Shown here piece by piece: positions 2,620 to 20,200 of a stretch of 64,000 nucleotides of DNA (positions are counted from its first letter, which is position 1; each line of letters begins with the position of its first letter). Origin of the DNA: a virus. The stretch is from positions 1 through 64,000 of the IMG/VR virus record IMGVR_UViG_3300036770_005084. One strand, written 5' to 3'. The position numbers and the translations under genes are program-made. The notes below the pieces were generated by a model that was given only the letters and a program-made list of their open reading frames with translations, was not told where the DNA came from and ran no database searches.

Positions 2620-2795
2620 TGTTTAAGTTTATTCTCAACACAATTCTCCAACAAAACAAAATGCACAATTCAACTCTAGATCTTTTCTGTGATCATGAAG
2701 ATGAAACTATTGCAGATGAATATGCAATGGAAATTGAACGTAAAGCAGCAGAACTAGAAGTGACTGTTGATTATTACATGATGGAGTTTGTTTGA
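2619..2795 (+). CDS. Hypothetical protein, 58 aa
   Basis: The 58-aa product starts MFKFILNTILQQNK and continues as an acidic helix (DHEDETIADEYAMEIERKAAELE). It overlaps both neighbours by one base (TGATG junctions), so it is translationally coupled. It was found by reading the sequence between the two larger genes. Its function is unknown. Confidence 0.6.
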   Translation: MFKFILNTILQQNKMHNSTLDLFCDHEDETIADEYAMEIERKAAELEVTVDYYMMEFV

Positions 2796-3091
2796 TGGAC
2801 ACTTGGGATTGTACTGTTACGATGCCATCAGGTAAGATTAGATCTATCAATGTAACTGCTTATTGTTATAGTGATGCAATTATTACTGCTGAATCTATGA
2901 CTGGTGGAATATGTAATAATGCAGTCCAAATGTATAATTCAACTACAAATAATGAAACAAGTGGAGATAATAGTGGTTTAGGAATACTATTTCTTCTTGT
3001 AGTTGTATTTTGTATTGCTGCATGGAAATATATTCTTCTCATTAGTGGAATTGCATTTGTTATGTGGTGGTTATGGAAGAATTGGAACTAA
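2795..3091 (+). CDS. Membrane protein with two C-terminal TM segments, 98 aa
   Basis: The start is ATG 2795, coupled to the upstream stop. A soluble N-terminal half (about residues 1-57) resembles a small beta domain (WDCTVTMPSGKIRSINV). It is followed by two adjacent hydrophobic segments at about 60-77 and 80-93, and a WKNWN end. The topology suggests a helical hairpin in the inner membrane with the N-terminal domain on one face. The family and function are not recognised. Confidence 0.65.
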   Translation: MDTWDCTVTMPSGKIRSINVTAYCYSDAIITAESMTGGICNNAVQMYNSTTNNETSGDNSGLGILFLLVVVFCIAAWKYILLISGIAFVMWWLWKNWN

Positions 3092-3100
3092 ATAGAATAT

Positions 3101-3174
3101 GCCTGTGTAGCTCAGTTGGATAGAGCAACGGTTTTGTAAACCGTAGGTCGTCGGTTCAAGTCCGACCGTGGGCT
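3101..3174 (+). tRNA. tRNA-Thr (anticodon TGT)
   Basis: Acceptor arm 3101-3107 pairs with 3167-3173, using several G-U pairs. D-arm AGCTCAGTTGGATAGAGC is typical. The anticodon stem ACGGT/ACCGT encloses loop TTTGTAA with anticodon TGT. The T-arm is GTCGGTTCAAGTCCGAC. No CCA is encoded. It reads ACA, common in the AT-rich structural genes. It starts 9 bases after the stop of the membrane-protein gene. Confidence 0.92.
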
Positions 3175-3269: not shown

Positions 3270-4505
3270 ATGCTGACTCTTCTTCCTTATCAACAACGTG
3301 CTCTTAAGGCAGTTCAAAATGCTATCAGGGGTAGTGTTTATATTCCCACTGGTGGTGGCAAAACTATTGTGATGATGGAAGATGCACGTCAACGGATTCT
3401 AAATGCACTAGAACCGATGACGTTTCTTGTTGTTGCTCCTCGTATTCTGCTTGCAAATCAACTCTGTTCAGAGTTCGAAGAATATCTCAAAGACCAGAAT
3501 GTTGCTTATCTGCACGTTCACAGTGGAGAAACTCATCATCAATCCTCTACACGTCCATCAGTCATTGCAGAATACAATGACACTGCAATCGGAAGTGGTA
3601 AGCATCAGTTTATCTTCACCACATACAATTCGATAGGTCGTGTGAATGAGGCAGATATTAACATTGATGTTGTGTATTTCGATGAAGCACATCACTGTGT
3701 GAAACCATCTAACTTTGTGGGTATTGCTCATACTTCAGCAGTTGCAGATAATGCTTATTTCTTCACTGCAACTCCGAAGTTTAATAACAGCAAGGAGTCA
3801 ATGAATAATACTGATGTGTATGGTAATAACATCATCAGTATTCCTGCAAAAGAACTCATTGAAGCAGGTAGTATCATTCCTCCCAAAGTTGTTCCTTATG
3901 AAGCACAAACCATTCGCACTAAAGAAAATGCACCTTTTGTAGATGCAGAGAACATTGTAGGTATTCTGTCAGAGATTTCTGATTGTGATGCTCCTAAAGT
4001 TCTTGTTGCTGCTCCTAGCACCAAAGTAATCTGGGCAATGTTTACTGAGAGTGATTTGCTGCAACAACTCAATGATATGGGTTATACGATTATGCACATC
4101 ACTTCAAAGCACGGTGCTTATATTGACAAACAGAAAGTCTCCCGTGAAGTATTCTTCCAGAAGATGAGTGAGTTTGGTGCTGATGCAGACAAGAAGTTCA
4201 TTGTATTTCATTATAGCATCCTGTCTGAAGGAATGAATGTTCATGGTCTGACTCATTGCATTATGCTTCGCAATCTTCCTCTGATTGAAATGGCACAGAC
4301 TGTTGGACGTGTTATCCGTATGCACCGTGATGATCGACAAGCAATCGCAGAGGGTAAAGTAAAAGCAGGTGAGTTTGCTTTCTATAAGAAACCCTTTGGC
4401 ACTATCACTATTCCTGTCAACAACAACTATGGTGATAAGATTGCTCGTCAACTTCAAACTGTTGTGGACACTATCTTTGTGAAGGGTGAGGTTCTTTCTG
4501 CCTAG
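3270..4505 (+). CDS. Superfamily 2 DEAH-type helicase/ATPase
   Basis: The start is ATG 3270; a TTG one codon earlier is less likely. The 411-aa protein has SF2 motifs in order: Walker A PTGGGKT (26-32), VVAPRILLANQL (Ia), DEAH (138-141), TAT (166-168) and motif VI QTVGRVIRMHR (343-353). The layout resembles the RAD25/UvsW-like group, but the separate gene at 51174 is the true UvsW counterpart. This is a second, smaller helicase within the early region, where it could remodel DNA or RNA early in infection. It forms its own transcription unit between two hairpin modules. Confidence 0.88.
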   Translation: MLTLLPYQQRALKAVQNAIRGSVYIPTGGGKTIVMMEDARQRILNALEPMTFLVVAPRILLANQLCSEFEEYLKDQNVAYLHVHSGETHHQSSTRPSVIAEYNDTAIGSGKHQFIFTTYNSIGRVNEADINIDVVYFDEAHHCVKPSNFVGIAHTSAVADNAYFFTATPKFNNSKESMNNTDVYGNNIISIPAKELIEAGSIIPPKVVPYEAQTIRTKENAPFVDAENIVGILSEISDCDAPKVLVAAPSTKVIWAMFTESDLLQQLNDMGYTIMHITSKHGAYIDKQKVSREVFFQKMSEFGADADKKFIVFHYSILSEGMNVHGLTHCIMLRNLPLIEMAQTVGRVIRMHRDDRQAIAEGKVKAGEFAFYKKPFGTITIPVNNNYGDKIARQLQTVVDTIFVKGEVLSA

Positions 4506-9230: not shown

Positions 9231-9235
9231 ATAGT

Positions 9236-9257
9236 TTTCCACAAGGTTGCGGAAAAT
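9236..9257. other. Single DnaA-box-like 9-mer with inverted arm
   Basis: TTTTCCACA at 9236-9244, and GGAAAA at 9252-9257 complementary to its first six bases. It lies 240 bases before the main cluster. Confidence 0.5.
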
Positions 9258-9329
9258 TGTTTTGATTTCATGACTTAGTAAAATGTTAATAATTATTATG
9301 ATGTGAGATATATGTCGTTTATAATGATA

Positions 9330-9353
9330 CCCCTATATCGTCCATTTCAGGGT
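9330..9353 (+). repeat. 24-bp direct repeat, copy 1
   Basis: CCCCTATATCGTCCATTTCAGGGT matches 9569-9592 exactly. The ends (CCCT/AGGG) are self-complementary, so each copy could form a small hairpin. The two copies bracket the DnaA-box cluster. Confidence 0.85.
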
Positions 9354-9483
9354 GTTTATATTGATGGTATTGTACGGTATTGTTTGATATCTGTGATTGT
9401 TCTTTTAATGTCTCTAGTTCTCGTGATCTTGGCCCACAGTTTATCACAAACTCTGAGATCTGTCAAGTGTCACTGTGCCAGTA

Positions 9484-9540
9484 GTTTTCCACAGGTTTTT
9501 CCACAATTTCCACAGGTTTTTCCACAACCCTGTGGAAAAC
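9484..9540. other. Cluster of five DnaA-box-like sites (putative origin element)
   Basis: TTTTCCACA occurs at 9485, 9497 and 9518, ATTTCCACA at 9506, and the inverted TGTGGAAAA at 9531. The block has an internal 21-bp period (two helical turns). Its outer 12 bases, 9484-9495 and 9529-9540, are perfect inverted repeats. TTTTCCACA is the DnaA-box form known from cyanobacterial origins; E. coli uses TTATCCACA. Host DnaA could bind here. Confidence 0.65.
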
Positions 9541-9568
9541 TGTAAATAATTCGATGTTTATTTTGACC

Positions 9569-9592
9569 CCCCTATATCGTCCATTTCAGGGT
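9569..9592 (+). repeat. 24-bp direct repeat, copy 2
   Basis: Identical to 9330-9353, 239 bases away. It begins 30 bases after the last DnaA-box-like site. Confidence 0.85.
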
Positions 9593-9748
9593 TATGAAAT
9601 ACAACTGCACTTCGTGTGTCGTTATCAATCACCTGAAAGGTGTCTAGAATGACCTGTAATCGTCTTTGTTCGTGTAACAGGTAGTCTGAGACCTACGTTA
9701 TATTTTCGTGCTCTCCTCGTGGTTTTTAATGCCCTGGGTATTGCTGGG

Positions 9749-9777
9749 TTGACAGAATAGGGCACTTGATGTACAAT
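9749..9777 (+). promoter_or_regulatory. Strong promoter in non-coding region (TTGACA-17-TACAAT)
   Basis: Perfect -35 TTGACA (9749-9754), a 17-base spacer and TACAAT (9772-9777). No gene starts within the next 280 bases, so the product would be a non-coding RNA or a long leader for the gene near 10079. Confidence 0.65.
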
Positions 9778-9781
9778 TAGA

Positions 9782-9802
9782 ATACAGTACGAGTTACTGT
9801 AT
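9782..9802. promoter_or_regulatory. Palindromic operator-like site at the predicted start site
   Basis: ATACAGTA (9782-9789) and TACTGTAT (9795-9802) are perfect 8-base inverted repeats with a 5-base centre. They begin about 5 bases after the -10 of the promoter at 9749 and so cover the transcription start. This fits a repressor operator or a 5' stem-loop of the RNA. Confidence 0.55.
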
Positions 9803-9840
9803 GTCACTATGGTCACAGTTCGTGTTATTATCTTCGTGTC

Positions 9841-9870
9841 CTGACAGTTATCAATTCGTGCCATTATAAT
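9841..9870 (+). promoter_or_regulatory. Second promoter-like sequence (CTGACA-18-TATAAT)
   Basis: CTGACA (9841-9846) and a perfect TATAAT (9865-9870), spaced 18. It is also upstream of non-coding DNA. Confidence 0.45.
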
Positions 9871-10008
9871 TGTTATTAGTAATACAAACTGACAGTGTAT
9901 TCGTTATACTTTGACAGTTTGTGATAATTTATAGGTATATTTTCGTGTTCGTGGAGCACAGTTATATCGGGGGTTGTTTAATTATAATACCGGGTAATGC
10001 GGTTATAA

Positions 10009-10019
10009 GGGGGGGGGGG
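10009..10019 (+). repeat. 11-base G homopolymer
   Basis: An uninterrupted run of 11 G in otherwise AT-rich DNA, 60 bases before the possible ATG at 10079. It could be a G-quadruplex former, a slippage site or an assembly artefact. Confidence 0.85.
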
Positions 10020-10078
10020 TTTTATAATTTTCGAAAGTCCTAACCTACAAAACTTTGAAAACGAGAAAGTTATTTCAA

Positions 10079-10246
10079 ATGCTAAAAAAAATTTTTTGGA
10101 GTAAAAAAAATCCTGTGAGGTTTTTGTATAATCATGTGTATGGGACAGAAACGAGTCCTTGGGATGAGATTCATTATATTGGGATTGTATTGGGAGAGAC
10201 AGTGAAGATTATTGGGAGTCACTATATAAAAAAATTTCGGATATAA
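10079..10246 (+). CDS. Hypothetical basic protein, 55 aa
   Basis: ATG 10079 opens 55 codons; a TTG at 10055 would extend it by eight. The N-terminus is basic (LKKIFWSKKNPVRFL) and is followed by a mixed segment ending IIGSHYIKKFRI. No good ribosome site is visible, so translation is uncertain. It is the first candidate gene after the gene-free region. Confidence 0.45.
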   Translation: MLKKIFWSKKNPVRFLYNHVYGTETSPWDEIHYIGIVLGETVKIIGSHYIKKFRI

Positions 10247-10461: not shown

Positions 10462-11220
10462 ATGGCCAAGAAAGGATTTACAGTTAAGAATACCGTAGAG
10501 AAAGAACCTGATCAGTTATTTGATATTGATGAATGTAAGGAACGTATTAGGGGCAAGACGATTGTATTTTGTCTACCAGGTAGGGGAGTTTCATATCGAT
10601 TCTTAAAATCATTTGTGCAGTTATGTTTTGATCTTGTACAATCTGGTGCTGCGATTCAGATTTCACAAGATTATAGTTCAATGGTAAACTTTGCTCGATG
10701 CAAATGTTTAGGTGCGAATGTACTAAGGGGACCAGATCAATTACCTTGGGATGGTAAACTCAAGTATGATTATCAACTATGGATTGATAGTGATATTGTT
10801 TTTAATACTGAAGCATTTTGGGCATTGTTTGCAATGGATAAGGACATTGCATGTGGATGGTATGCTACTGAGGATGGAAGAACAACATCTGTAGCACATT
10901 GGTTAGATGAGGATGATTTCAAGAGTAATGGTGGAGTGATGAATCATGAGATGGTAGATACCATTACAAATCGTAAGAAACCATTTACTGTAGATTATAC
11001 GGGATTTGGGTGGACTATGATTAAGAATGGAGTATTTGAGCATCCAGAGATGAAGTATCCATGGTTTGCTCCGCAGATGCAAGTCTTTGAATCTGGTGAA
11101 GTACAGGACATGTGTGGAGAAGATGTATCATTCTGTCTCGATGCTACACGTAAGTGTGGATTTGAAATCTGGTGTCATCCTCAAATTCGTGTCGGACATG
11201 AAAAGACAAGAATCATCTGA
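10462..11220 (+). CDS. GT-A type glycosyltransferase
   Basis: The 252-aa protein carries the GT-A D-x-D metal and sugar-nucleotide motif as WIDSD (residues 107-111). A C-terminal GEDVSFCLDATRKCGFEIW...GH (219-245) matches the usual E-D-v-x-F-c...G pattern of the acceptor and catalytic region. Such enzymes transfer sugars from nucleotide donors. In phages they modify DNA bases, phage proteins or host surface glycans, and which applies here is unclear. It stands among small genes between the origin-like region and the baseplate genes. Similar genes are frequent in T4-like cyanophages. Confidence 0.8.
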   Translation: MAKKGFTVKNTVEKEPDQLFDIDECKERIRGKTIVFCLPGRGVSYRFLKSFVQLCFDLVQSGAAIQISQDYSSMVNFARCKCLGANVLRGPDQLPWDGKLKYDYQLWIDSDIVFNTEAFWALFAMDKDIACGWYATEDGRTTSVAHWLDEDDFKSNGGVMNHEMVDTITNRKKPFTVDYTGFGWTMIKNGVFEHPEMKYPWFAPQMQVFESGEVQDMCGEDVSFCLDATRKCGFEIWCHPQIRVGHEKTRII

Positions 11221-12009: not shown

Positions 12010-12420
12010 GTGCCATTAAAAGAATCTGATATATCTAAAGGGTTTAAGGATATTAGTTTGTCTTTTAGTAGACATCCTATAACAAATGATATTTCTGCAA
12101 TTTATAATGAAGATGCGATTAAAAAATCTGTCATGAATCTAGTTCGAACGAAATTAGGTGAAAGATTTTTTAATCCATTTATTGGATCCAATGTTGAAGC
12201 AATGCTTTTTGAATTATCAACACTTGGATTAGATGATGCAATTACTGAGGAGATTAGAACTACAATTATTAATTTTGAACCAAGAGTAGTTTTGAGAGAT
12301 ATATCAGTTAATGATAATTTTGATAATAATGAACTTTTTATTGAAGTTGTTTATGACATAGTGGGATTACCTACACCGACTCAAACATTATCTTTTGTAC
12401 TACAACCAACTAGATACTAA
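12010..12420 (+). CDS. gp25: gp25-like baseplate wedge protein
   Basis: The 136-aa protein is close to T4 gp25 (132 aa) in size. It contains the lysozyme-like gp25 core: RTKLGERFFNPFIGSNVEAM, then an acidic segment and a C-terminal beta part. gp25 bridges the baseplate wedge to the first sheath ring. The start codon is GTG with no clear Shine-Dalgarno; no ATG lies nearby in frame. It leads the baseplate operon and overlaps gene 6 by one base. Confidence 0.92.
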   Translation: MPLKESDISKGFKDISLSFSRHPITNDISAIYNEDAIKKSVMNLVRTKLGERFFNPFIGSNVEAMLFELSTLGLDDAITEEIRTTIINFEPRVVLRDISVNDNFDNNELFIEVVYDIVGLPTPTQTLSFVLQPTRY

Positions 12421-14297
12421 TGGCATTCACTCAATTTACAAATTTAGATTTCGATCTAGTTAAAGTTACTATAAAGGATTATTTAAGATCAAATTCTAAT
12501 TTTACAGATTTTGATTTTGAGGGATCTAATCTATCCGTTCTAATTGATATACTTGCATATAATACCTATATTGCGGCATATAATGCCAATATGGTAGCAA
12601 ATGAATCTTTTCTGGATAGTGCCACTATCAGAGAAAATGTAGTTTCTCTGGCAAGAAACATTGGATATGTACCACAATCTAGAAGATCATCAAGAGCAAG
12701 AATATCATTTTTCATATCAGATATACCAAATACAGTTACTACAGTGACTTTGAAAACTGGTATTGTTTGTGTAGGTAATTCTGATAATACCAGTTATATT
12801 TTTTCAACTCCAGAGGACATTACAGTTGGTGTTGAAAATGGAACGGCACTATTTGAGGATATTGAAGTAGTAGAAGGTTCTTTATTAACAAAATCATTTA
12901 CAGTTGATACATCTTTAGTTAATCAAAAATATATTTTACCAAACTCATATATAGATACCTCCACAATTAGAGTTAAGGTAAAATCAGTAAACGCAACAGA
13001 AAGTGAAGAATTCAAATATATTGATAATATTATTAATATTAATTCCAAGTCTGCAGTATTTTTACTCCAAGAAATATCTGATGAAAGGTATGAGGTATTT
13101 TTTGGAGACGATTTGTTTGGCAAAAAATTAACCCATAATGATCAAGTTAGTGTAACATATATTACTTCAAATGGTGAACGAGGTAATGGTGTCTCTAATT
13201 TTTCATTTTCAGGCATAGTATTAGGAAATAATAATTCTAATTTATCTTCAAAAGTATCATCTATTGTGACTCTAGAACCGTCTACAAACGGTTCTGAAAT
13301 ACAAAGCATAGATTCTATTAGATACTACTCCCCAAGACTGTATGCTTCCCAATATAGAGCAGTAACAGCATCAGATTATGAAGCACTATTACCTTCTGTA
13401 TATCCAAATGTAGAATCTGTTACTGCATATGGTGGAGAGGAGATATATCCACCAGAATATGGAACGGTATTCTTAGCAATTAAACCAAAGAATGCAGATT
13501 ATTTAACAGAATTTTCAAAAGAATCAATACTAACTTCATTAAAAAAATATTCTGTTGCTGGAATAAATTTAAAGATTGTTGATATTAATGTACTATATGT
13601 GGAACTAGAATCTACAGTTTATTATAATTCAAATTTAATTGATTCTCCTAGTAATTTAAGAACAAAGGTTATAGATTCACTAAATTCATATGCAAATTCA
13701 ACAGATTTGAATAAATTTGGAGGAAGATTTAAATATAGTAAAACTCTAAGTATTATCGATACTACTAGTGATTCAATAACATCAAATATAACAAGAGTTA
13801 AAATTAGAAGAAATTTAGGTGTTTTAAATCTACCTACAAATTATCTAATATGCTTTGAAAATAGATTTAACGTCAATTCATCTGGATATAATATTCGAAC
13901 AACTGGATTTAAAGTTTCTGGTAATCCTAATCTTGTTTATATTTCAGATATTCCAAATGAAGATCTTACTGTCGGAAAATTATTCTTATTTTCATTAGAT
14001 GGAAATGAAGTTAAAGTTGAAGTTAATAATGTAGGAAGTGTAGATTATATCACTGGTGAAATTAATATAGATAATATAACCGTAGTGTCAACTACTATTC
14101 CAAATAATATAATTGAAATTGAAGCAATTCCATATTCAAATGATGTAATTTCAAAGAAGTCAGTCTACTTAAAATTAGACACTGGAAAAAGTAAAATTAA
14201 TTTAGAACGTGATATTATCTCTTCGGGTGAAAATTCATCTGGAAGTAGATTCCTCCCACAGTCAAGTTATAAAACCGATTTAAAAGTAAGAATCTAA
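12420..14297 (+). CDS. gp6: gp6 baseplate wedge protein (baseplate J-like)
   Basis: The 625-aa protein compares with T4 gp6 at 660 aa. The N-terminal region has the family's ILAYNTYIAAYNANMVANES and NVVSLARNIGYVPQS signatures. A middle part has RAVTASDYEALLPSVYPNVESV, typical of baseplate J and gp6. gp6 forms the inner ring that connects wedges and triggers sheath contraction. It starts at an ATG overlapping the stop of gene 25 and is followed one base later by gene 7. Confidence 0.95.
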   Translation: MAFTQFTNLDFDLVKVTIKDYLRSNSNFTDFDFEGSNLSVLIDILAYNTYIAAYNANMVANESFLDSATIRENVVSLARNIGYVPQSRRSSRARISFFISDIPNTVTTVTLKTGIVCVGNSDNTSYIFSTPEDITVGVENGTALFEDIEVVEGSLLTKSFTVDTSLVNQKYILPNSYIDTSTIRVKVKSVNATESEEFKYIDNIININSKSAVFLLQEISDERYEVFFGDDLFGKKLTHNDQVSVTYITSNGERGNGVSNFSFSGIVLGNNNSNLSSKVSSIVTLEPSTNGSEIQSIDSIRYYSPRLYASQYRAVTASDYEALLPSVYPNVESVTAYGGEEIYPPEYGTVFLAIKPKNADYLTEFSKESILTSLKKYSVAGINLKIVDINVLYVELESTVYYNSNLIDSPSNLRTKVIDSLNSYANSTDLNKFGGRFKYSKTLSIIDTTSDSITSNITRVKIRRNLGVLNLPTNYLICFENRFNVNSSGYNIRTTGFKVSGNPNLVYISDIPNEDLTVGKLFLFSLDGNEVKVEVNNVGSVDYITGEINIDNITVVSTTIPNNIIEIEAIPYSNDVISKKSVYLKLDTGKSKINLERDIISSGENSSGSRFLPQSSYKTDLKVRI

Positions 14298-14298
14298 A

Positions 14299-17200
14299 AT
14301 GAACTCAGATAAAAAGTCAGTAAAAATTAGTGATATTATTGAATCTCAGATTCCAGAAGCAATAGCATCTGATAATCCACTATTTTCAGAGTTTCTGTCC
14401 CAATATTATAAATCTACTGAATATCAAGGTGCTCCCATTGACATTGTAGAAAATCTTACTCAGTATAAAAATGTAGATAGTTTTGATGCAAAGAATCTTA
14501 TAAAATCAACAAAACTGACAAAAGCAGTTTTAGTGTCAGATGATGATGATAATATTCACGTAGAGTCTACTTTAGGATGGCCTAGTGAATATGGATTGTT
14601 AAAAATTGATGATGAAATTATTACATATACTGGTATTACAACAAATACATTTACTGGTTGTATTCGAGGATTTAGTGGAATAGAGTCATTATCTGATGAT
14701 GAAAATCCCGGATATTTAAAATTTTCGTCATCAGAATATGCAGAACATTTGAATGGAAGTGAAGTATTCAATTTAAGCAATCTATTTTTAATAGAGTTGT
14801 TTGAAAAGACAAAATATCAATTTACTCCAGGATTTGAAGAACTTGATTTTGATTCGAAAATTAACAATCAAAATTTTATAAGCAATGCAAGATCTTTTTA
14901 CCAATCAAAAGGATCAAAAGAAGCATTTGATATTTTATTTAAAGTTTTATATGGAGAATCTCCACAAATATTAATACCAAGTGAAAGATTATTTACACCA
15001 TCTGATGATAAATGGATTGTTGTTGAAAGATTTATTGTTGAATTAGTAGAAGGAGATATTAATACTATTATCGGTCAGACCTTATATCAAGATGAGAATG
15101 AATCAAAAACCATTTTACCTGCAAATGGATCAATATACAGAGCATCTAAATTGCCATCTGGAGATAATTTATATTCAATAGATATCTTTTCTGGATATTC
15201 AAATAACTTAAATCCAAAAGGTGCTATCTATGGGGAATTTGTACCTACATCAAAAACATATTGTACACAAGAAATAAAAACCTCTAGTAATTCAATTACA
15301 GTTGTTTCTACCATTGGATTTGAACAATCTGGTTCATTAATAATTAATGGAATAGAAATAAAGTATGAAGATAAGACAAATACAGAATTTTTAAATTGCA
15401 CTGGCATAACAGAAGATATTAAGTATGGAGATATAATTTATACTAATAACTATGCTTATGCATATTCAAACAATTCTATAGATTCAATTGTAAAGGTAAG
15501 AATTTTAAATACTTTGTCTGATATAGATTTTTCCGATGAATATTTAATGCTTCCTGGAGATAATTTAAAAATTAGAAGTTTAGGAAACTCTAACACAAAT
15601 AGTTTTACAAAATCTCTATTATATAATGTTCCATCAATAATTTTTGTTGGAGAAGTTGTAGATGGCCTTTCACCAAAATCTTATGGAGTTGATAGGAACA
15701 ATGGTCAAGTAAGAACTAAATATCCACACTATCTCAAAAATAATGATTTAGTTGAAATTTATAGTGTAACTGAAAACAAGAAACTTGCAGAATCTTTAGT
15801 TTCAAATGTTTCAGAAATTACATTTACTATTAGTTTTGCAAATAATTTAAAACTAAATCATATAATTAAACTTAGAAGAATCCCAATAAAATCATCTTCT
15901 ACAAAATATTCATCAATAGATAAAAAATTTAATGTGAATATCCAGGATAGTTTTGAAGATCTGGATTACAATTATATTGCAGCAAATGGATTTCCAAATT
16001 TAAGTTTAAATCCAATTATAAAAGAATCTAAATTTATTATTTCCAATTCTATTACAGACACTTTAACAGCAAATCATAAGTTTTTAACTGGAGATCAGGT
16101 AACTGTAGAAGATTATAATGTAGAGTTTGTAAATCAACCAGGATTTACAAACAAATTAGGAATAACTACAGGATCGACTTATTTTGTAAAAAGAATTGAT
16201 AATACTAACATAAAACTTGCAGAATCTAGAATAAATTTAAAAAATGGAATATATATTGACTTTAAAGAATATGTAGATGAATTTTCAACTACAATTTCGG
16301 GATTTGTAAAAGAAATAACTCTGATTGATTCAAAATTATACAATAATGAATTTACAACAACTAAATTATTTAAAAAAATACCAAAAAATCCAAAATACGC
16401 AGAGAAAAAAGTAAAAACTTCCTCTGGTGCAGTAGGAATTTTTATAAATGGTGTTGAAATACAAAGTTATAAATCATTTGATAAATTATATAATGGTACT
16501 ATTGAATCTATAGATGTTTTAAATGGTGGAAATGATTATGATCTATTAAATCCTCCAAAATTTAGTGTGAATTATGTTTATAATAATCTACATTCATTTG
16601 TCCCGGAGATAGTTGGTGAGTTAAAATCTCTTGAGGTTAAAGATTCAGGATTTGATTACTTAGAAACTCCAACAATTTCTGTACTTGGTGGAAATTCCAC
16701 AGAGACAATTGTTGAAGTTAAAATGAAAAGGATTAGAAATGAAGTTGAATTTAATGCAGCAGATCCACAATCAGTTGTAACTCTTGACGAAGTTAATAAA
16801 TTTGTATTTGAAGATAACCATAAAATGAAAGTTGGAGATGCTGTAATCTATTACACTTATGGCAACTCTCCTATTGGAATTGGAACAGAAATTGCTGATG
16901 GGTTTTTAATTGACAATTCTGTGTATTACATAACAAATGTAGGAGCAGGAACATCATTTGAAATTGCGTCTACATATGAAGATGCTGTTACTGGACAAAA
17001 TATCATCAATTTAAGAACTAGAGGAAATGGATTGCAAAAATTTATTTCTGTGGATTATGTAAATGTGGTAGATGAAGCAAATATAGTAAAATCAAGTCCT
17101 TTTAGATATAAGAGTATTGCTTTTACATCAGATAATATTAATCCATATGATAATATTATTGAATATGAAAATCATGGATTTTTGGATGGGGAAGAAGTCA

Positions 17201-20200
17201 TTTATTCTCAATCTGGAGGATCAGCAATTTTAGATGATCAAACATATTATTATATTGTTAAAATTGATGATTCTAAATTTAGAGTATCTACAGAAAAGGA
17301 TGGATCTTCTTTAGTTTCATTTTTAGGATCTGGTTCAGACACAGTTCATTATATTTCATATTCTCCAATAAGAATAGAAATACGTGGAAAGGTAACTGAA
17401 TATGGAATTTCAAATATTGGGTATTCTGCCCAGATAGAACCTATAGTTAGAGGATCTATTGTAAGTGTTATCCCGGTTGTTACTGCAAATTACTCTTCTA
17501 ATATTTTAAATTATGAGAATTCTCCAATAATTAATACTCTGAAAGGGGAAAATGCTGCCATAGGACCAATTATAACTGATGGAAGTATATCTAGAGTTGT
17601 CATATTCAATGGAGGAAAGAATTATTATAATTCTTTAGAGATAAAAGTTACTGGAATTGGATATGGTGCTAAATTATTACCAGTAGTGCAAGATGGCATA
17701 CTGGTAGATGTTAAAGTAATAAGTCCTGGAATTGGGTACGATAATTTTACTACACTAACTCTAGTTGAAATTGGAAGTGGTGCTTCATTTAAAGCAAACT
17801 TAAAGAAATGGACAGTAAATGAGTTATCAAAATATAGCACATCAGAGTTGAATGCTGGAATTCTTTTAGGAGAAAACTATTACCCAAATACAAATAATTA
17901 TGGAATTTATAATTTAAATTCTAATTTTATCAATTTATTTGACATTAAATCAACAGAACATTCTCCAATAATTGGATGGGCATATGATGGATGTCCAATT
18001 TACGGACAATATGGATATAAAAATATAGATGGCAGTGGTGGTATTATTACTATGAAATCTAGTTATAAGAAGGTGAAAACTGCACCATCATTGATAGATT
18101 CTCCAAATATAGATTTCATAGAAGATTACCAATATGTAGAAGGATTGGGGGATCTTGATGAGCATAATGGTAGATATTGCATAACTCCAGAATATCCTGA
18201 TGGGGTATATGCATATTTTGCGACTAATATTTTTCCATTTTTTATTGGGGATACTTACTCATTTGATGTACCTTCGGAAAATTTTGATGCTGATTATAGT
18301 CAAAAACTAAATTTAAATAATTTAAAAGTAGTAAAGCATACTGCACCATATTATACAGAAGATTACGATAATTATTATGACTTTTTTGAATTTAAACCAT
18401 CAAATCAATTTGCCGATCTAATAGTAACTGAAACATCTTCTGGTGGTATAAGTAGACTAGAACTAATTGATTCTGGAAGCAACTATAAAATAGGTGATAA
18501 GATTAAATTTGATAATACTAAAACTGATGGTTTTGGTGCCCTCGGAGAAGTCGTATCTATTTCTGGAGTTTCAGTCAGTAGTATAACAACATATTCCGAA
18601 TCAATTCCTTCTCTTACATTTATTTCAAATGGAAATTTAATTACTGCAATATCTTCAAATGAGATCGCAGTAGAAAATGATAACTTTGTAAGTATAACAT
18701 CTATTTCAGATCCTAAGTACTCAGAGTTACTAGGATTGCAAAAAGCAATAATAATTGATTTTAGAGCAGAATTAAAAGAACCTTTAGAGACAGAGTTTCA
18801 AACTGGAATTACAACCTCAATATCAGTGACTACATCAATTTCAAATTTTAAAATTGGTTATAATTTTAAAATTGAGAATGAAGTGTTTACTGTAATTGGA
18901 TTAGATTATATTAATAATCGTGTAAATGTAAAGAGAGAACCTGGAGGTATTGCATATGGATCTGGGGCATTTATTAAAAATACTAAGAGTGAATTTTCAT
19001 TTGAGATAAAAAATAACTTAGATATTACAACAGATAATGACATTGCTTATTTTTATAGTAGTTCTGTTTCTATTGGAACAGATTCTGGTGTTGGAGTTGG
19101 AAATACTATAGTAATTAATCCACTTGGTCCTGGAAAATCTATATCAAAATATGTAAGGACTGCTGGAATATGGATTCCAAATCACAATTTTAAAACTGGT
19201 GATAAAGTTACATATACTGAAGCAAATAGTACTATAATTGCAGCAGTTAATGGGATTGGATCTCCAACAAACCTATCTGAGTTTTCTTCACTGTACATTG
19301 TTGATTTTGGGTCAGACATTATTGGATTGACAACAGTAAAATCAAATTCATTTAACCAATCAGACCTTTTATATTTTACAAATGAAGGAACTGGAAATTA
19401 TCATAAGTTATCTACCGATAGACAAGTTGTTACAGGATCTGCAGTATATTCTGAAACTATATTATCTACTGAGGATCCACATGGTCTTTCTATTGGAGAT
19501 TTAATAAATGTCAATGTTACTGTTGGATCTGAAGTTGAGTATATTGTTAGTTATAATTCAATAACTAAGAGATTGGTAATAGATTCTGAAAATAATCCAG
19601 AATTATTAGCATATAAAAACCAAACTATTAAATTTAATTTAACCTCAACAACATTATCAAAAACAAAATTCAAACTATATACCGATAGAAATTATATTAA
19701 TGAATATTATGGCAGTGGTTCAGGATTCGATGAAGTATATTACGAAGGTGACTATCTATATCTAAAGATAACAGACACAACACCAGATATTTTATATTAT
19801 AACATAGAATCTACTATTAAAACAGTTTATGAAGATATCTCAGTTAAAAATAACAATACGGTATTAGTTATACCAAGTAATTACAATATAATTTGTGGTG
19901 TAGTAACATATACAGAAAATGACTTCACAGTAAACCTAGAGGCATTACCGGAGTCCAATTCATATATTTCCGATGGAAATACTACTATTTCATATAATGT
20001 AATTAAATCCGATATTTCTGGTCCCGTATATGATGCTAGATTAATTTTAACTGGAAAAAATTATAAAAAACTCCCACCGATTGTTGGAATAGGATCGACC
20101 GGAATTAATTGTGAATTAATACCAGTTTCAGATAATATTGGAAAAATTGAATCTACAAAAATAATATCAAATTCTCCTTTCCCAGCAGATAAGACATTAA

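Follow-up and report, generated by a model that had tools for sequence, protein, structure and literature searches.

Where in its genome does a T4-like cyanophage start replication, and does the initiator protein of its host take part? The start site and the mode of replication of these abundant phages are not settled; for Syn9 a single theta origin was predicted, its place being left unstated (PMC2984593). The stretch of viral DNA analysed here (64,000 nucleotides, hereafter the window) belongs to a record of 155,231 bases from a T4-like cyanophage (Kyanoviridae), which carries gp25 and gp6, psbA and gp59. The closest host genes to its psbA are those of Synechococcus RCC307 and Cyanobium (96%). 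An array of nonamers in a gap between genes of this window, taken in an earlier note for a putative origin, gives a precise candidate for the start site.

A phased array of DnaA boxes in a non-coding gap

No convincing gene was found between positions 9231 and 10249. The ORF covering the array is an 80-aa GTG ORF and the small ORFs nearby had no family match, which bears out the initial description of the region as gene-free. The phrog_1574 gene (10462-11220, plus strand, 252 aa), which is the first conserved one right of the gap, served as an anchor, and the baseplate wedge genes gp25 and gp6 (12010-14297, plus strand) constitute a syntenic anchor common to T4 oriE.

Scanning of the sequence located five exact copies of TTTTCCACA, at 9235, 9485, 9497 and 9518 on the plus strand and at 9531 on the minus strand, and a box with one mismatch, ATTTCCACA, was read at 9506 on the plus strand. 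These six sites had been counted correctly in the earlier note, which overlooked a seventh, TTTTCCGCA, on the minus strand (9248-9256). The latter and the plus-strand box at 9235-9243 form a left inverted pair (9235-9256). The remaining boxes form a right cluster (9485-9539) with start-to-start distances of 12, 9, 12 and 13 bases, and the array as a whole holds five exact and two near-exact copies of the host DnaA box. The right cluster contains an exact 21-bp tandem repeat (9486-9506 and 9507-9527), and its outer arms (9483-9498 and 9526-9541) are complementary, perfectly so over the outermost 13 bases. Both the packing of five boxes into 55 bases with a 21-bp period and the perfect inverted repeat at the cluster ends were thereby confirmed.

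The left pair adjoins an AT-rich stretch (9260-9329), in which 50-base windows reach up to 82% A+T compared with about 60% nearby. By its composition this stretch is a candidate unwinding element, placed beside the boxes as in a bacterial-type DnaA-dependent origin. In relatives, an AT-rich stretch likewise adjoins the left boxes, on either side.

The window contains six copies of TTTTCCACA, compared with 1.5 expected and a maximum of five in 100 shuffles. In the whole 155-kb genome there are eight exact copies, five of them in the array and the other three all single, so that the nonamer is not frequent elsewhere. However, clustering alone was rejected as a proof, since 149 nonamers of the phage genome also reach five copies within 310 bp. 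Most of these are presumed to be repeats inside genes. Because clustering is not unique to TTTTCCACA, conservation in relatives was taken as the decisive evidence. Some short motifs, among them GGTATCCAA and GGAACTCAA, are found tens of times in the phage genome, densely clustered with up to 17 copies per 310 bases; they are probably internal repeats of a long gene.

Two direct repeats of 37 nt (9317-9353 and 9556-9592, 89% identical) contain the exact 24-mer CCCCTATATCGTCCATTTCAGGGT, at 9330 and 9569, as had been noted. The 24-mer had no match in IMG/VR; it was therefore rejected as part of the conserved device and is probably incidental.

Conservation of the array upstream of gp25-gp6

Relatives were collected by their gp6 and by their phrog_1574 protein. 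Dozens of T4-like cyanophage contigs have the array upstream of gp25-gp6, and an equivalent array occupies the same gap in the relatives L131, L133, L134, L137, L150, L043, L222, L225-L227, L232 and L233. At the default threshold the DNA of the window region gave no similarity match to isolates; a DNA search with the array, loosened to E = 10, found S-PM2, Syn1 and other isolates. The search for the array in related cyanophages, which the earlier note had proposed, was thus positive for many contigs and for isolates of at least nine genera (S-PM2, Syn1, Syn9, S-CAM1, S-CAM3, S-RIM8, S-RIM32, P-TIM68 and S-SZBM1). The boxes are located several kb upstream of gp25-gp6 in S-PM2, Syn1, S-CAM3 and S-RIM32, and amid small genes in the cognate region of S-CAM1, S-RIM44, S-RIM8, Sf-CH3, P-TIM68 and S-SZBM1; Syn9 has an inverted box pair 6 kb upstream of gp6, at 52.6 kb of NC_008296. 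Up to eight boxes were found in the region of DSL-LC03, and many isolates have just two or three.

The arrangement of the boxes is also conserved. The left inverted pair occurs as in the window in L131, L137, L150, L182, L303, S-PM2, S-CAM3 and S-RIM32, and right clusters with spacings of 21, 11-12 and 22 bases occur in L043, L137, L222, L225-L227, L232 and L233. One clade has an almost invariant layout: an inverted pair 23 bases apart, a leftward promoter and one box are followed, 78-79 bases after this lone box, by boxes at 21, 11 and 22 bases and a rightward promoter. When eight relatives were aligned, the boxes and promoters stood out as conserved islands. The exact inverted pair was present in 8 of 24 whole isolate genomes compared with none for the reversed control, a count that leaves out isolates whose boxes are all on one strand, such as Syn1. 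S-RIM32 carries a second inverted pair (NC_031235, 61859-61880) about 1 kb to the right of the first, which resembles the right cluster of the window clade. In S-PM2 (NC_006820, 19177-19333; L299) an annotated tRNA-Leu and tRNA-Asn span the box array, and ARAGORN finds neither; in Syn1 the hypothetical ORF Syn1_073 likewise overlaps boxes. These annotations look doubtful.

The array was absent from the regions or genomes examined of P-SSM2, S-SRM01, S-CAM7, S-T4, ACG-2014f, S-SSM7 and S-CAM9, and several genera are without it. Since isolates were sampled by similarity, the presence rates are not a census. In some lineages without the array, the cognate region contains other repeats such as CTCGACGAG. 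Clustered palindromic repeats, TCTCGACGAGA or TCTCGACTAGAT, were observed there in phages lacking the array (S-T4, L212, ~2650-2880; S-SRM01, L209, ~3360-3480; L261, L289 and L291), and TATAAAGAAT repeats in the cognate region of L249, L281 and L293; all three may be alternative iterons.

An unbiased scan of IMG/VR for two copies of TTTTCCACA within 30 bases returned at least 120 stretches. Among the 120 listed, 35 encode gp25, gp6 or phrog_1574, the boxes being upstream of these genes in every case, at a distance of 0.9-10.5 kb; the reversed nonamer gave one such stretch in 120 listed, of similar total length. Three or more boxes within 120 bases were found in 48 of the 120 listed stretches compared with 7 of 120 for the reversed control. 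Neighbouring boxes are mostly spaced by 11-12 or 21-22 bases when on one strand and by 12-14 or 23-25 when on opposite strands, which corresponds mostly to one or two helical turns, although the loci are related and the counts not independent. Judged from the sequence, and with the same reservation about related loci, this phasing would permit cooperative binding.

The boxes match those of the host chromosomal origin

In S. elongatus, Anabaena and Cyanothece the nonamer TTTTCCACA is the DnaA box (PMC4674748). Among 27 genomes of the picocyanobacterial host family it is the commonest form of TTTTCCNCN upstream of dnaN, with 19 exact copies in ~16.5 kb, ahead of TTTTCCCCA (16) and TTTTCCTCA (11); its identification as a cyanobacterial DnaA box was therefore correct. 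Whole host genomes contain 8-17 exact copies. Host DnaA retains the helix-turn-helix signature of the solved DnaA-box complexes 1j1v and 3pvp/3pvv, and its recognition segment is kept, with the residues that we take to contact the bases. A DnaA C-terminal domain (domain IV) is not encoded by the phage. Because the box matches that of the host oriC, the recognition segment is kept and the phage has no such domain of its own, host DnaA is the most economical ligand of the array, and its binding there is likely.

Several host-family genomes have inverted pairs 20-21 bases apart upstream of dnaN; across 151 host-family genomes, no strict inverted pair of good boxes was found. As the phage boxes are also purer than those of the host, simple copying from oriC was rejected as the source of the locus.

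Predicted promoters flanking the right cluster

Cyanomyoviruses are thought to express their early genes through the unmodified host sigma-70 polymerase (PMC2984593). A leftward sigma-70 promoter with an extended -10 element lies between the two groups of boxes (9438-9466, minus strand; TTGACA, a 17-base spacer ending in TGN, and TAAACT), and a rightward candidate matching the consensus lies to the right of the cluster (9749-9777, plus strand; TTGACA, 17 bases, TACAAT). Both are sequence matches, and the total number of predicted promoters in the region is not above chance. The leftward motif TTGAC(A/T)-N14-TGN-TA was found in 19 of the 26 array regions, with no occurrence on that strand in 295 kb of flanking sequence; rightward promoters were found right of the cluster in 12 of 28 tabulated regions. 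The predicted leftward transcript is antiparallel to small plus-strand genes on its left, and the ORF list shows no evident minus-strand gene to the left of this promoter.

Comparison with known origins and DnaA-binding sites

The T4 annotation places oriE 1.7 kb upstream of gene 6, with copying in the (-) direction. This origin requires an early promoter, and its repeats, evenly spaced and conserved in relatives, have been assigned no role (PMC3016281). The array resembles it in belonging to a T4-like phage, in its position upstream of gene 6, at a distance of a few kb (~3 kb in the window), in its phased repeats and in a leftward early promoter, predicted from sequence, which would provide a candidate primer RNA. 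However, the T4 repeats are GTTGAAGGTAATG-like, spaced by 24 bases and located inside the annotated gene 5, whereas the array consists of host DnaA boxes in a non-coding gap, and the T4 origin overlaps repEA/repEB. The T4 stretch examined contained no box-like site, and the T4 repeat sequence was not found in the array. Because the T4 repeats lie inside gene 5 and are unrelated in sequence, the likeness to oriE is an analogy and not a membership. T4 is not known to use DnaA, nor its oriE to bind it.

The cyanobacterial oriC upstream of dnaN shares with the array the TTTTCCACA box, a short non-coding region and, in several hosts, inverted pairs about two helical turns apart. Unlike it, the phage locus has more tightly packed boxes that come closer to the consensus, lacks dnaN and dnaA as neighbours and contains a leftward promoter. 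A GC-skew switch, as expected of a bacterial-type origin, was absent at the locus, the skew being positive on both sides; T4 oriA and oriC are also without a strand-composition switch (PMC3016281). Iteron origins of plasmids and lambda-type phages likewise combine phased repeats with a neighbouring AT-rich stretch and a promoter, but the repeat of the array is the host DnaA box, and no phage initiator gene for it was recognised. Titration sites of the datA type are non-coding clusters of DnaA boxes as well; the cyanophage array differs from them in its fixed synteny by an early promoter and often has just two or three boxes.

Proposed function of the array and alternative explanations

Since the array matches oriE in position, in the direction and class of its promoter and in its phased sites, we suggest that it is a conserved early-acting control locus of Kyanoviridae, in which a transcription-primed, oriE-like origin and an early-promoter hub are assisted by host DnaA. 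We assign this reading a probability of about 0.5. The host sigma-70 RNA polymerase would start a leftward, apparently non-coding early transcript within the gap, and this RNA would serve as primer for leftward leading-strand synthesis. Host DnaA would occupy the consensus boxes, their one- or two-turn spacing favouring a cooperative complex, and may help to open the AT-rich stretch next to the left pair or to stabilise an R-loop. The opened DNA could then allow the phage helicase system, which includes gp59, to load. Counted against this reading are the genera without the array, the lack of a known use of DnaA by T4, the phage-encoded gp59, the missing GC-skew switch, the absence of strict pairs from all 151 host-family genomes, the unrelated T4 repeats and a coverage rise near the array in S-PM2 that was interpreted as terminal redundancy (PMC4503421). 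Lack of a helicase loader was rejected as a reason to need DnaA, as gp59 is encoded.

The chief rival, though an unlikely one, is a divergent early promoter without origin activity, at which DnaA or a phage repressor bound to the boxes represses or times both sigma-70 promoters and the leftward RNA is a regulatory antisense transcript. DnaA regulates transcription in other bacteria, and in the best-resolved clade the boxes lie between or beside both promoters. Antisense transcription has been reported in Kyanoviridae (PMC10976474). Such a switch, however, leaves the AT-rich stretch by the left pair without a role, and that pair is located downstream of the leftward start and not at the promoter; the place of the locus, moreover, matches T4 oriE.

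Less probable still is a site for a phage protein (an initiator, an early regulator or, at a pac site, the terminase) that resembles the DnaA box by chance. The different repeats in the cognate region of other lineages, such as CTCGACGAG, would fit this explanation. So would the read density of S-PM2 virion DNA, which rises 2-3 fold just downstream of a region ending at 15,339, an increase ascribed to terminal redundancy by the authors (PMC4503421); the S-PM2 array, at 19,231, is ~4 kb from this rise, and virion DNA cannot separate a pac site from an origin. Against a phage protein stand the exact host box consensus across distant genera and the lack of a DnaA C-terminal domain in the phage, and a pac site would not be expected to carry a sigma-70 promoter. 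A decoy that titrates DnaA and so halts new rounds of host replication appears improbable to a similar or slightly greater degree: the phage boxes are mostly exact TTTTCCACA and those of the host oriC mostly degenerate, as a decoy would favour, but the two or three boxes of many isolates are few for titration, and a decoy needs neither the fixed position nor the promoter nor the phasing, all of which are conserved. A hairpin element (terminator, processing site or cruciform) with an incidental DnaA-box match is very improbable, since, although the inverted pairs are foldable (z = -7.0 in L133, -5.1 in L131 and -2.7 in the right cluster of the window), many boxes are on the same strand and cannot pair with each other, the loops vary from 3 to 16 while the spacing tracks helical turns, no terminator-like site was found at the boxes, and an Rfam search gave no family and nothing above chance.

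If the array is an oriE-like origin assisted by DnaA, a lytic T4-like virus family would start or license its replication at a transcription-primed origin that recruits host DnaA, tying replication to the DnaA state and the cell cycle of cyanobacteria; we regard the odds of this as even. It would be the first known case of a T4-like phage relying on the host initiator, as far as our literature search went, and it would suggest a role for the repeats at oriE-like loci, whose function is unknown in T4, as well as a route by which the cell-cycle state of the host affects infection. No earlier report linking T4-like cyanophages to DnaA boxes was found in the literature searched, the coverage of which was incomplete. 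The conserved, precisely placed array with its leftward promoter allows a cheap direct test in cultured S-PM2, Syn9, Syn1 and S-RIM8.

Other sequence elements of the gap

Right of the array (9610-9960), TTCGTG and ATTCGT motifs are abundant in the window, as they are in the relatives L133/L134 (~2790-3130). At 10010-10020 the otherwise AT-rich gap contains about ten G in a row. A conserved non-coding element, consisting of CCTAACCTACAAA followed by A-rich sequence, lies upstream of the phrog_1574 gene or its neighbours in the window (~10040-10110), L131 (~840-900), L137 (~1415-1480), L210 (P-SSM2, ~4165-4230) and L411 (Syn9, ~2510-2560), and it occurs also in phages without the box array.
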